64,000 nucleotides of DNA from Vulcanimicrobiota bacterium (GTDB lineage Bacteria; Vulcanimicrobiota; Vulcanimicrobiia; Vulcanimicrobiales; Vulcanimicrobiaceae): NCBI GenBank assembly GCA_027306785.1, contig DAHUZB010000007.1, positions 1-64,000 on the forward strand. The letters are read 5' to 3'. The notes beneath the pieces were generated by a model. That model was given only the letters and a program-made list of their open reading frames with translations. It ran no database searches and had not been told where the DNA came from. Shown piece after piece: positions 20,468 to 24,220 of the stretch. How positions within the stretch are numbered: position 1 is the stretch's first letter; every line of letters starts with the position of its first letter. The position numbers and the translations under genes were made by a program.

Positions 20468-20773
20468 TTACTCCGCGCGATAGCTACCGCTCGGATCGAT
20501 CGAGATGCGGGCGCCCCCGACGACGGCGCTGCGGAAGCGATGATCCCAAAAACTCAGCACCCGTACGATCGCGGGCCGTAGGCGTGCGATGAGTTCTCGC
20601 GCACGCTGCGAGACCGAGAGCGCGTCTTTGACCCACGGTGGATGATCGCGTGGGAGCAGCGAGCCGTCGAACTCACTCTCGGCGATAGCGGCGACGACCG
20701 GCTGATTCTCTCGCAGACCGAGGAGTTCACCGAGCGAAGGCCGCCGCTCGTCACCCTCAACGCGGCGCAGCAT
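20468..20773 (-). CDS. Hypothetical protein following the FliA-like sigma
   Basis: A 101-residue ORF overlapping the end of the sigma gene by 17 bases and reading in the same direction. It is soluble, rich in Arg and Leu, with no signal or membrane segment; the central part (WVKDALSVSQRARELIARL) is helical. No family is recognised. Tight overlap with sigma and matching GC-rich codon use support a real gene in the same transcript, perhaps a flagellar accessory or regulator. The call is based only on context. Confidence 0.45.
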   Translation of the reverse strand: MLRRVEGDERRPSLGELLGLRENQPVVAAIAESEFDGSLLPRDHPPWVKDALSVSQRARELIARLRPAIVRVLSFWDHRFRSAVVGGARISIDPSGSYRAE

Positions 20774-21434
20774 GAACCGCTCTCCGTAGTCTCGTCATCG
20801 CCGCGATGTGCAATTGCGATGCACGCTGCGCCGAGACGCCCATGCGCGCACCGACCTCGCGTAACGAGCGTTCGTCGAAATAGTGTTCGCGAATCAGGCG
20901 ACGTTGGCGCTCCGGCAGCGCGTCGACGAGCGCATGCAGGGCGGCGCGCCGGCTCCGTGCCGCCACGATGGCGGCCGGGTCTTCGTGTCGATGCAGCACG
21001 AGTCGTTCGTTTTCCGGAAGCGACGCATCGAGCGAGAGCGGCGTATGCCGATAGGCCGCGGAAAGCGCGCGTAGATAGCCCGGACGAATGCGATCCATCT
21101 CCTGCAGCGACGGAACGTATCCGCGCTCGGCCGCCAGACGATAGCGTTCGTTCTCGCCGTCGCGCACCGCGCGGCGTGCGCGTTCCGAGACAGGGTCCAT
21201 GCGGCGAATGCCGTTGAGCATGGCTCCGGCGATCAAGCGGCTCGCATAGTGTTCGAGCGAAGGCCCGCGCGCGGGATCGAAATTGTCGACCGCGCGCAGC
21301 AGACCGATCGCTCCATCGCCGATCAGATCGTCGATGTCCACGCCTGCGACCATACGCCGCACGCGCCGCGCGATCTGACGCACCAGCGGGAAGAGCGCGC
21401 GCACCGTCGCTTCGCGCGCGTCATTCGCGTGCAT
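20757..21434 (-). CDS. fliA: FliA/WhiG-type flagellar sigma factor
   Basis: A 225-residue sigma-70 relative of the flagellar class. Region 2 reads VDIDDLIGDGAIGLLRAVDNFDP with the following YASRLIAGAMLNGIRRMD; a region 3-like stretch and a region 4 helix-turn-helix (LPERQRRLIREHYFDERSL) follow. FliA-type sigmas transcribe late flagellar genes. Here it lies directly behind an FlgJ-like gene and flgG/flgF on the same strand. It overlaps its upstream neighbour by 14 bases and the downstream hypothetical by 17. The sigma family is clear; assignment to FliA rather than a general-stress sigma rests on region 2 and on the neighbours. Confidence 0.85.
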   Translation of the reverse strand: MHANDAREATVRALFPLVRQIARRVRRMVAGVDIDDLIGDGAIGLLRAVDNFDPARGPSLEHYASRLIAGAMLNGIRRMDPVSERARRAVRDGENERYRLAAERGYVPSLQEMDRIRPGYLRALSAAYRHTPLSLDASLPENERLVLHRHEDPAAIVAARSRRAALHALVDALPERQRRLIREHYFDERSLREVGARMGVSAQRASQLHIAAMTRLRRAVHAAPR

Positions 21435-21618
21435 GCGCCATCTCCGCGGCGATCAACGCCGCGAACCCGTCGTCGTCGTGTTCGGCGATCCCGCGCGCGA
21501 TCGACCCGATGCCGTAGGTTCCGAGCGCTCCGCATCCGCGCGCGAGCGGGCGCAACGCCTGTTCGAGCAGGAGCGCCTCGAACGTGACGCCTACCTGCCG
21601 TGCCGCTGCCGTATCCAT
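21421..21618 (-). CDS. Minimal rod-binding protein (FlgJ N-terminal domain-like)
   Basis: A 65-residue protein that resembles the rod-binding part of FlgJ: the helix AARQVGVTFEALLLEQALRPL matches the family's FEA-L-L-x-Q-x-L pattern in its middle, followed by a short Gly-rich turn and a closing helix (GFAALIAAEMAHA) like the GLA-x-x-I/L-A-x-x-L tail. FlgJ caps the growing rod in the periplasm. This version lacks the usual 90-100-residue length and any peptidoglycan hydrolase domain. It overlaps the sigma start by 14 bases and lies downstream of flgF-flgG, as FlgJ does elsewhere. Position plus the motif make the call plausible. Confidence 0.6.
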   Translation of the reverse strand: MDTAAARQVGVTFEALLLEQALRPLARGCGALGTYGIGSIARGIAEHDDDGFAALIAAEMAHARE

Positions 21619-21755: not shown

Positions 21756-22331
21756 CTACGTCAATGGCGTTCCGGTCATGAGGTCCAATCGCTTGAGCGT
21801 CGGTGTATTTTCGGGATCTACCCCGTGCTTTTGAGCCGTAAGCAACAGTACATCGCCGGCGACTTCAAGCTGCGGATCGTCGCAGCAAAAGAGATCTTCC
21901 TGTTGCCAGCGCATCCCCTCGCCGTCATAGCAATAGATTCCACAGCAGTGACCGACAAGTACCAGGCTTCGCTCGGCCAAAGGGACCACATAGTGAACCG
22001 TATGTCCGTCAAAGCCCGGCAGTTGCTCCGCCTTCGTCGGTTCCGTCGCGTCGAAAAGCCAGCCGCCAGGGCGCACTAAGAAACGGTTGGGGTCCGGCCA
22101 GGTCGCGATCCGGAATCCGCCGATCTCCCCCGAAACAATGACAAGGTACTTTTGGCCGATGCCATTCGTTACGCGCAAGATCGGGCCGCCGCTCTCTTGA
22201 CCCCGCGGAAGATAATATCGTGGAAACGATGGAGAGTTTGGCAAATCCGCCAGCCATTCGAGCGTATAGGTTCGCTCGAACGTCTCATCAATCGGCACGT
22301 CACGATCATAGATCACACGTGCGCGTTCCAC
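21756..22331 (-). CDS. Hypothetical protein, AT-richer than its neighbours
   Basis: A 191-residue soluble ORF of unknown function with beta-strand alternation (YLVIVSGEIGGFRIATW, LAERSLVLVGHCCGIYCY) and five Cys in HCCGIYC and FCCDD. No signal peptide or membrane segment is seen. Its base composition is noticeably less GC-rich than the flagellar genes around it and its codon use differs. It sits between a degenerate flgG end and the FlgJ-like gene, so it is likely acquired. The start ATG at 22331 lies just before a second-type repeat. No family is recognised. Confidence 0.5.
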   Translation of the reverse strand: MERARVIYDRDVPIDETFERTYTLEWLADLPNSPSFPRYYLPRGQESGGPILRVTNGIGQKYLVIVSGEIGGFRIATWPDPNRFLVRPGGWLFDATEPTKAEQLPGFDGHTVHYVVPLAERSLVLVGHCCGIYCYDGEGMRWQQEDLFCCDDPQLEVAGDVLLLTAQKHGVDPENTPTLKRLDLMTGTPLT

Positions 22332-22339
22332 GATTTTGG

Positions 22340-22373
22340 CAGCGGTCCTTCGGGATTCCGCTCAGAATGACAG
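22340..22373. repeat. Second-type short repeat (CCTTCGGGATTCCGCTCAG type)
   Basis: GGTCCTTCGGGATTCCGCTC followed by AGAATGACAGG is a relative of the main repeat with a different centre (GGGATTCCG instead of GACAAG). It lies immediately beside the degenerate flgG end. Confidence 0.6.
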
Positions 22374-22374
22374 G

Positions 22375-22449
22375 TTAACCTCGCTGCAGATTGTTTGCAC
22401 TACGCAGCTTCTCATCGGCGGCTTGCACGCCCTTAGCGGCTGCATACAA
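22375..22449 (-). pseudogene. Degenerate second copy of the flgG 3' end
   Basis: Read on the minus strand this encodes LYAAAKGVQAADEKLRSANN followed by LQRG and a stop, nearly identical to the C-terminus of the intact FlgG (AKGVQAADEMLRIANNLQRG). The DNA agrees at about three in four positions over about 65 bases, then homology stops. No start or upstream part exists. Together with the intact flgG end (22889-) it forms a direct repeat around a small membrane-protein gene. Confidence 0.75.
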
Positions 22450-22494
22450 ATTGCAGAAGGGGGTCCGAAAGGTACCTAAACGGAGACCCCGCAC

Positions 22495-22836
22495 TCAGCT
22501 AATCGGGCACCAATTGCCGGAGCTGCGTGGCACGAACCAAAATACCGCTAAGGCGCCGACCGCTGAAATGAGTAGGCACAGCACAAGGGCGATAGTATCC
22601 GCTCTCTTGGGGTTCTTACATGTGAGCTTTAGTCCACAAAGCAGCGCGATCATTACTGGCGGAACGGTTGCAGGCCACCAAACGACCGACAAAACAGCTG
22701 CCAAGACGACACCCCACAAAGCGTCGCTGCACTGCTTCGCTCCATGGGCAAAAAAAAGCGCTTCCTCGATGATCAGTGCGCCAACTGCCCACAGTATACC
22801 GCGGTGGAGGCGTGTCCAATGCTTGCTGCTCCCCAT
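22495..22836 (-). CDS. Hypothetical four-helix membrane protein
   Basis: A 113-residue protein with about four hydrophobic helices: GILWAVGALIIEEALFFA, ALWGVVLAAVLSVVWWP, VMIALLCGLKLTC and TIALVLCLLISAVGALAVFW. A longer in-frame start at 22914 would overlap the flgG end and is less likely. It is AT-richer than surrounding genes and lies between the two copies of the flgG 3' end, so it is probably a cargo gene brought in with the duplication. No family is recognised. Confidence 0.5.
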   Translation of the reverse strand: MGSSKHWTRLHRGILWAVGALIIEEALFFAHGAKQCSDALWGVVLAAVLSVVWWPATVPPVMIALLCGLKLTCKNPKRADTIALVLCLLISAVGALAVFWFVPRSSGNWCPIS

Positions 22837-22888
22837 CTTATGACCATCGGCGTCAGTTTCGTCTGATCTTAAGAATCGGCGAGCGACG

Positions 22889-23614
22889 TTAACCGCGTTG
22901 CAAATTGTTCGCAATCCGTAGCATCTCGTCTGCTGCCTGGACGCCTTTGGCGTTGGCTTCGTAGGCGCGTTGAGCGGTGAGGATTTGCATCATTGCGTCG
23001 ATGATCGAGACGTTCGAGCGTTCGAGCATGCCGAAGCGTAGGCGGGGGCCGTGTTGGCCGCCCGGTGGCGCGATGCGCGGATGACCAGATGCGCGCGTTT
23101 CGCGAAAGAGCGTGCCGTCGAGGCTGCGTAGATGTTCGGGTGCGGGGAAGTGCGCGAGCGAGATCCGCGCGATCTCGCGGGTTCCGCCTTTGCTCGTCAC
23201 CTGTATGCGACCATCGCCGGTGACGCGAACACGCAGTGCGTCGGCCGGGATGCGAACGCCGCGCAGACGCCAGCCGGCTCCGTTTCGCAACGTGCCGTCG
23301 GCGCTGCGCGAAAACTCGCCGTCGCGCGTGTAAGCGAACTCGCGCCCGCGCCGCAGCACGAAAAAGCCGTCGCCGTCGATCGCCACGTCGAACGCACCGT
23401 TGCTGCGCTCCAGTTTCCCCTGGGTGAACACGGCATGCGCGCCGAGCGCCACCGTACCGACGCCGGGTTCACCGGGCGCGGCAAGCACTGCGAACGTCTC
23501 CGACCGGCCCTTGAATCCGGCGACGTCGGCGTTCGCGAGATTGTTGGAGATGACGTCGAGGTTTCGCTGTTGAGCCGCCATTCCGGTCGCCGCGGCGAAG
23601 AGCGCGCGGTCCAT
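22889..23614 (-). CDS. flgG: Flagellar distal rod / hook-basal body protein (FlgG-like)
   Basis: A 241-residue rod protein of the FlgF/G/E group. The N-terminal disordered-to-coiled domain shows MAAQQRNLDVISNNLANADV followed by GFKG, the middle has the FDVAIDGDGFFVLRR and the YTRDGEFSRSADGTL blocks, and the C-terminus is DAMMQILTAQRAYEANAKGV and the NNLQRG end. FlgG forms the distal rod through the periplasm and outer ring. Slightly shorter than the usual 260. Its start directly adjoins the flgF-like stop. The usual flgA, flgH and flgI are not behind it; instead come two foreign-looking ORFs. Confidence 0.9.
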   Translation of the reverse strand: MDRALFAAATGMAAQQRNLDVISNNLANADVAGFKGRSETFAVLAAPGEPGVGTVALGAHAVFTQGKLERSNGAFDVAIDGDGFFVLRRGREFAYTRDGEFSRSADGTLRNGAGWRLRGVRIPADALRVRVTGDGRIQVTSKGGTREIARISLAHFPAPEHLRSLDGTLFRETRASGHPRIAPPGGQHGPRLRFGMLERSNVSIIDAMMQILTAQRAYEANAKGVQAADEMLRIANNLQRG

Positions 23615-24220
23615 CTACTTCAGCCTCGCGACGTCATTGCTCGCCTTTTGGCGCGTACCGTCGATGGCGCTCACGACTTTTTCCGCACTCTCGAACGAAC
23701 GCTGCGCGGCAAGCACGCTCACCATCTCGCCGATTGCGTTGACGTTCGGCGTCTCGATGAAGCCGCTGCGGACCGCGGCATTCCCGCCGCTCACCAGCAC
23801 GCGGTCGATCCGCTTGCCCGCGAGAAGTACGCGCCCGCGTTCATCGATTCGTGCGCCGTCAGGCACGCGCAGCGGGCCGTGCAATCCAAGGAGCGCGCGC
23901 CCCGCGTCGTCCTGCAGCACGCCGAAGCGGTCGCGCGAAAATTGCCCGTTTCGAGTAGCCGTGATGCGCCCGTCATCCGCCCGCACGCGAAATGTCCCGT
24001 CACCGACAAGCGCGAGGTCGTACGGTCTCCCTGTAAAGCGCAGCGCACCATGCCCACGATCGGCAACGGGTACGATCTCCACGCCGTTCGCCGTCAGCGC
24101 GCCGCGCGCGAGTTCGGCGTGAAAGCCGTCGGTCGAGACGTTGGCGAGATTATCGGTCGCAATCTCAAGCCGCGTGCGGGCGGCGATCATCGCGCTCGAA
24201 GCCCAGGCGATACCATCCAT
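23615..24220 (-). CDS. Flagellar rod protein (FlgF-like)
   Basis: A 201-residue flagellar basal-body rod protein. It begins MDGIAWASSAMIAARTRLEI followed by ATDNLANVSTDGF, the NNLAN-type signature of rod/hook proteins, has LALVGDGTFRVR and ATRNGQFSRDRFGVL in the middle and ends with the MVSVLAAQRSFESAEKV helix. It is shorter than standard FlgF (about 250), so the middle beta domain is reduced. It heads the flagellar transcript and is followed without a gap by flgG. FlgF is chosen by order and by lower similarity to FlgG. Confidence 0.8.
   Translation of the reverse strand: MDGIAWASSAMIAARTRLEIATDNLANVSTDGFHAELARGALTANGVEIVPVADRGHGALRFTGRPYDLALVGDGTFRVRADDGRITATRNGQFSRDRFGVLQDDAGRALLGLHGPLRVPDGARIDERGRVLLAGKRIDRVLVSGGNAAVRSGFIETPNVNAIGEMVSVLAAQRSFESAEKVVSAIDGTRQKASNDVARLK

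Follow-up and report, generated by a model that had tools for sequence, protein, structure and literature searches.

The 3′ end of a flgG-like gene in the 64,000-nt stretch of DNA analysed here (hereafter the window; part of contig C25 of a 3.1-Mb genome) probably carries a stranded array of cassettes, inserted by a serine recombinase and each bringing a replacement tail for the gene. The compact sites of relatives, a fixed break point, a motif (hereafter P) in front of the displaced flgG tails and, in one relative, a large serine recombinase encoded beside P give good support for an integration of DNA into the 3′ end of flgG that left the gene whole.

On the minus strand, the locus reads flgF-like gene, flgG-like gene, 113-aa protein gene, second flgG tail, REP-like repeat, 191-aa protein gene, flgJ-like gene and fliA-like gene (Table 1); the name flgJ-like rests on position and likeness to relatives, the gene being matched by no family model. 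The preliminary description of this DNA took the insert to interrupt the order of flgA, flgH and flgI. Those genes lie intact behind the canonical flgG that this genome has on its contig C7, which contradicts that claim and implies that the window carries a second rod gene of FlgF/FlgG type; the insert parts this gene from the flgJ-like/fliA-like pair.

Table 1 Features of the flgG-like locus in the window.
Feature	Position	Strand	Basis
flgF-like gene	23615-24220	-	locus read
flgG-like rod gene, FlgF/FlgG type, 241 aa; target	22889..23614	-	ORF list and family models
Attached tail of the flgG-like gene, last 20 codons; read as imported	22889-22951	-	break point
Likely crossover AA in the flgG-like gene	22947-22948	-	break point comparison and G098 attP symmetry
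Cassette 1 cargo, 113-aa membrane protein gene (start 22836, stop 22495)	22495..22836	-	ORF
Inverted repeat directly behind the 113-aa gene, possible terminator	22459..22490	.	by eye
Relic of recombinase half-site P, one base extra	22435..22458	-	leave-one-out matrix
Displaced second flgG tail, 20 codons and stop, 63 bp (AA at 22433-22434)	22375..22437	-	tail scan
REP-like repeat, TGTCATTCTGAGCG-type, directly behind the displaced tail	22339..22373	.	sequence reading
191-aa protein gene, probably cargo from an older insertion	21756..22331	-	ORF
flgJ-like gene, abuts flgG in most relatives	21421..21618	-	locus comparison
fliA-like sigma factor gene, next in the old order	20757..21434	-	family models and locus comparison

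The degenerate copy of the flgG end, complete with stop codon, that had been described behind the gene is real but spans 20 codons (22375-22437), the likeness not clearly reaching 22449. The intact gene ends in AKGVQAADEMLRIANNLQRG-stop and the copy reads AKGVQAADEKLRSANNLQRG-stop, 18 of the 20 residues being identical; the BLOSUM score of the copy is 85, against a maximum of 36 among 1,640 shuffled downstream sequences. The DNA of the two tails is 75% identical across 17 codons, and third codon positions hold 11 of the 14 differences found in 19 codons. The 113-aa membrane protein gene between the tails and the 191-aa gene behind them are both there as described, in a dip of G+C to ~0.55-0.60 across 21.6-22.9 kb that the suggested composition profile brings out against flanks of 0.65-0.70. 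Neither protein has a Pfam match over cut-off or any NCBIfam match. A search for them elsewhere had been proposed at the same time; the 113-aa protein, which belongs to no known family, has no match in the other 97 of the 98 relatives searched, and the 191-aa protein has a 48% relative in G017 that is located away from flgG. Repeats similar to the REP-like one of the window also lie behind tails in G001, G053 and G038.

The flgG-flgJ interval was compared, as had been recommended, across 82 family flgG loci (Ca. Eremiobacterota), drawn from the 91 of 99 genomes that gave a match; short downstream sequence did not exclude a locus, and 77 of the 82 have at least 1 kb. The fliA-like gene starts at most 250 bp from flgG in 60 of these loci, lies 491-6,244 bp away, behind inserts, in 16, and was not found in six, for some owing to the contig end. 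The flgG stop codon lies inside GTGGATAR, which is also the flgJ-like start, in 30 of the 82 loci, one of which (G044) has an insert. The closeness of the fliA-like gene and the stop overlap together indicate that the compact order is the common one; in the window, flgG and flgJ are ~1.27 kb apart. The flgG of G002, from the genus of the window genome, runs off its contig end, and this locus was not judged.

Scanning with the 20-residue tail detected 12 extra full tails in nine of the 82 loci, all downstream of flgG and in the same orientation, with one each in G000, G001, G021, G052, G059 and G099 and two each in G044, G053 and G103; partial ones are present in G100 and G052, and G009 has one that has decayed. 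Of the 149 phylum genomes scanned with a tail pattern, 11 had at least two matches, and in nine of these every extra tail lies at the flgG locus. The double matches in G024 and G039 were dropped as whole paralogues on separate contigs, as was a tail-like match at +26 in G031 (score 47), where P is absent. Between flgG-attached tails and the other copies, differences fall at codon positions 1, 2 and 3 in the ratio 12/8/106, and this third-position excess implies that the copies diverged while still coding for a working protein. Every full displaced tail starts at one point, an AAR lysine codon 20 codons from the flgG end. The flgG end is best read as a recurrent, stacked cassette site produced by more than one event; of the earlier proposal that an element integrated at the flgG 3′ end and restored the gene, the integration is well supported and the single event is not.

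Directly before every full-length displaced tail lies a ~23-bp motif that is not part of flgG, with the consensus GTCGGCTTTTCGTATGCACTCCT. The P pattern occurs at 11 places in eight of the 99 family genomes, 10 of them right ends before displaced tails (nine behind flgG, one in G098, whose flgG is on another contig), while the reversed pattern used as a control gives two matches. Among genome contigs, the exact pattern was found in three stretches, all from Eremiobacterota, and among viral contigs neither P nor the tail was matched. The P relic of the window, despite its extra base, ranks first of 128000 positions under a matrix built without it. A comparison of the P arm with the tail, made to look for inverted repeats confined to the distal site as in ECC, was no more than suggestive: the best offset, 4, gives 4.83 of 10 matches, the others reach at most 4.17 and the control at most 4.64. 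The inserts in G102 and G052 include older cassettes without a right end. In G103, G099 and G059 (loci L062, L054 and L064), a short ATG-started frame just before the last tail, with promoter-like sequence ahead of it by eye, reads in frame through P and the tail to the overlapping flgJ start, and may have restored coupled flgJ translation after the operon was split.

On contig C64 of G098, the gene for a 609-aa large serine recombinase starts 50 bp from a P motif and tail. The protein has Resolvase and Recombinase domains over cut-off, finds its best NCBIfam match in CcrB (E 1.5e-27, 96.5 bits against an equivalog cut-off of 900) and counts TP901-1 integrase and YokA among its relatives of solved structure. 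The left junction, on contig C239, has flgG broken at the lysine codon of the cassette break point. Joined, the two ends give GTTGCCTTTTTGTATGCACTCCT-AA-GGGAGTTCACATAAAGAGGCAAC, a 48-bp palindromic candidate attP centred on the AA of the FlgG lysine codon, which is symmetric at 18 of 23 positions (equalled by 0 of 20,000 shuffles) and folds as a single strand with z -5.08. Because the joined ends are symmetric, we infer that the junctions on the two contigs belong to one element; the symmetry also makes the AA the likely crossover and the cassette motif the likely P half-site. Judging from these sequences, the G098 enzyme would recombine this putative attP with attB in flgG. The element leaves flgG unrestored and is the only one at this break point seen with its recombinase, which has no close relative in the other 148 of the 149 phylum genomes, the only match being a partial one at 32% in G073. 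G098 holds seven PF07508 matches, above any of the other 16 genomes searched, and its element beside flgG carries a second serine recombinase and, by eye, methyltransferase-like and Vsr-like frames. A PF07508 recombinase is absent from the window genome, in agreement with the earlier remark that no integrase remains, as well as from most tail-bearing genomes, and none lies in the cassettes; the window array is therefore probably immobile now.

The gene is altered in other genomes as well. In G043, flgG is broken by a phage-like element of ~21 kb that encodes a 494-aa serine recombinase (from position 935 of L140 onward and to 3070 of L141), which uses a neighbouring point, GTGCAGGC, a few bases off the cassette break point. 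Together with the G098-type element, it makes the flgG end a target of two different serine recombinases. A ~43-kb insertion in G129 (L179-L181), which has a short target repeat at both ends, breaks flgG at another point (AQRA) and was set outside the system. In G058 (L146), unrelated AT-rich sequence adjoined by a 1023-aa open frame replaces the flgG end downstream of the usual break point.

Which of the two tails is native was addressed in genus g36 by a small comparison of seven tail-bearing genomes with eight insertion-free relatives. Mean third-position identity to the insertion-free relatives is 0.53 for the attached tails, compared with 0.61 among the insertion-free genomes themselves; four last tails score 0.63-0.70, and two middle tails 0.58 and 0.64. 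Attached tails are thus less like the insertion-free sequences (p 0.016; p 0.005 with the last tails added), a trend to which G099 runs counter. The 12 codons just before the break show no such difference (0.45 vs 0.44, p 0.57), and codons -60 to -48, further upstream, differed too (p 0.028). In G059, G098, G099 and G103, the flgJ start and the displaced tail still overlap. On these codon identities and this overlap, the displaced tail looks native and the flgG-attached tail imported, as if borne by the cassette, which would revise the preliminary view of the displaced tail as a diverged copy left by the element.

The part of the insert ORFs that was scanned for cargo yields a bactofilin (G001), SnoaL or DUF4440 proteins (G037, G044, G052, G103), glyoxalases (G100, G103), a GNAT protein (G014, with a relative in G102), Uma2 (G018), MarR and ABM (G102), RidA (G100), DUF1905 (G044), an alpha/beta hydrolase (G059) and proteins of no known kind. 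Cargo genes frequently run antisense to the array. A HigB/HigA toxin-antitoxin pair lies behind flgG in G021 (L101), where P and a tail come next, and a relative of it in G047 (L122). Cassette-sized blocks are common to genomes of different genera: G044 and G052 have 655 bp in common at 86.7% identity, from the P half-site through the tail into the cargo, and G014 and G102 have 552 bp in common at 81.7%, compared with 67% for the flgG bodies of both pairs. The GNAT gene adjoins flgG in G014 and comes second in G102, behind another insert and a P relic, which is the order that stacking predicts.

In the reading that we favour, a CcrB-related large serine recombinase would cut flgG at the AA of its lysine codon, 20 codons short of the end (attB), and the incoming DNA would be a small circular cassette comprising half-site P (~23 bp), the AA with a complete flgG tail, and cargo. 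Insertion would fuse the host flgG to the cassette tail, leaving the gene whole and the target renewed, and would carry the old tail, now behind P, beyond the cargo; repeated insertion would stack cassettes with the newest adjoining flgG. Two kinds of site would result, B-tail in flgG, empty or occupied, and P-tail at the cassette end and, presumably, in the circle. Cassette 1 of the window would consist of the imported tail, the 113-aa gene and the P relic, and the older tail and 191-aa gene behind it would probably stem from an older insertion. The circle, of which no instance was seen, the recombinase acting in trans and the tail travelling with the cassette are all presumed steps.

An alternative that we rate as unlikely is that a serine-integrase element with two P arms broke flgG and that DNA from a relative later mended the gene by recombination, the donor's other end joining inside the element; P arm and old tail would then be a scar, and the cargo element or donor DNA. 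We keep it as a serious rival because phage serine integrases are reported not to recombine pairings beyond attP × attB without a helper (PMC3783163), whereas the cassette model needs P-tail × B-tail, and because the G098 element leaves flgG unrestored. Serine integrases normally use P-P′ sites (PMC3783163), the disrupted state is visible in G098, and the flgG-like gene is also disrupted in G043 and G129. Yet nothing foreign shows in the codons that immediately precede the break, no donor flgJ start lies behind the attached tails, and an illegitimate joint would be needed each time, although tail-cargo joints are common to different genera.

The stretch from the 191-aa gene to flgJ shows neither a third tail nor a further P motif, and the G017 relative of the 191-aa protein is not at flgG, as would be expected if a serine recombinase had delivered cassette 1 and an unrelated event the 191-aa gene; right ends have been lost from older cassettes elsewhere too (G102, G052), and we consider such a mixed origin quite improbable. 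A simple tandem duplication of flgG, or the decay of a second copy, together with the arrival of unrelated genes in between, would suit the short and degenerate window copy, but copy start and P are constant in nine genomes with different cargo, no longer remnant of a second flgG is seen at the copies and the differences are mostly synonymous; since the break point is fixed and the sites of relatives are compact, we reject this very improbable course. Small single-gene cargo of these kinds is often met in integron cassettes. Stacking and mostly small single-gene cargo notwithstanding, a classical integron-like array, built on a tyrosine recombinase and attC sites that fold, is rejected as having almost no probability, since the IntI model TIGR02249 exceeds its cut-off in none of 17 genomes and the three P-tail sites tried show no folding advantage over shuffles (z 0.35, -1.71 and -0.55), the GTT core being absent at the break and the cargo often antisense.

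Under the stranded-array reading, a mostly uncultured phylum acquires genes in SCC-like fashion at a flagellar gene, and the cargo can be as little as one gene. The reading offers a concrete candidate attP, attB and recombinase for testing, and P followed by a tail may serve as a marker for mobile genes in metagenomes. Among the literature matches listed, a scope mostly outside subscription journals and preprints, there was no account of flgG as an integration site or of such Eremiobacterota cassettes.

On paper, integron cassettes resemble the present ones in having one fixed site, small stacked units and no recombinase inside, and differ in that here no integron integrase exceeds its cut-off, no attC-like folding is seen and the core is different. 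We regard it as possible, rather than probable, that they form a serine-recombinase counterpart of the integron, with tiny recombinase-less cassettes of half-site and spare flgG tail inserted and stacked at a single lysine codon and moved between Eremiobacterota genera in trans by a CcrB-like enzyme, each exchange swapping the last 20 codons; if cassettes truly travel with no recombinase of their own, an integron-like economy is supported by serine recombinases. Phage serine integrases (TP901-1, A118/LI) share with G098 the domain make-up, a symmetric attP of ~50 bp and a two-base crossover (PMC3783163), but their elements break or occupy the target and bring no replacement end, and here only G098 and G043 look so.

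Closer parallels are found in SCCmec and ECC, whose large serine recombinases take the 3′ end of the protein-coding gene rlmH as their insertion site (PMC6222049, PMC13296057). ECC has direct repeats of ~50 bp at both ends, whereas its inverted repeats are confined to attR and the circle (PMC6222049); the direct repeats correspond to the 63-bp tails at both borders in nine of the 82 loci. In contrast to those elements, the target here is flgG-like and never the rlmH 3′ end in the arrays found, the likely crossover lies in a lysine codon 20 codons from the end, the cassettes are without a recombinase, and the G098 enzyme scores far below the CcrB equivalog cut-off. The ssrA islands of Dehalococcoides (DsiB) likewise combine a CcrB-like serine recombinase with islands stacked behind one gene that end in a direct repeat of the target 3′ end; a conserved motif absent from the target precedes each ssrA-end repeat, and the recombinase is missing from many islands, 15 being without an integration module (PMC3146451). 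Their target is a tmRNA and their repeat 20 bp, unlike the protein gene, 63-bp tail and cargo down to one gene seen here. The pattern of extra tails at flgG is real and recurrent, and we place it as a variation on the SCC and ssrA-island kind rather than a new class.
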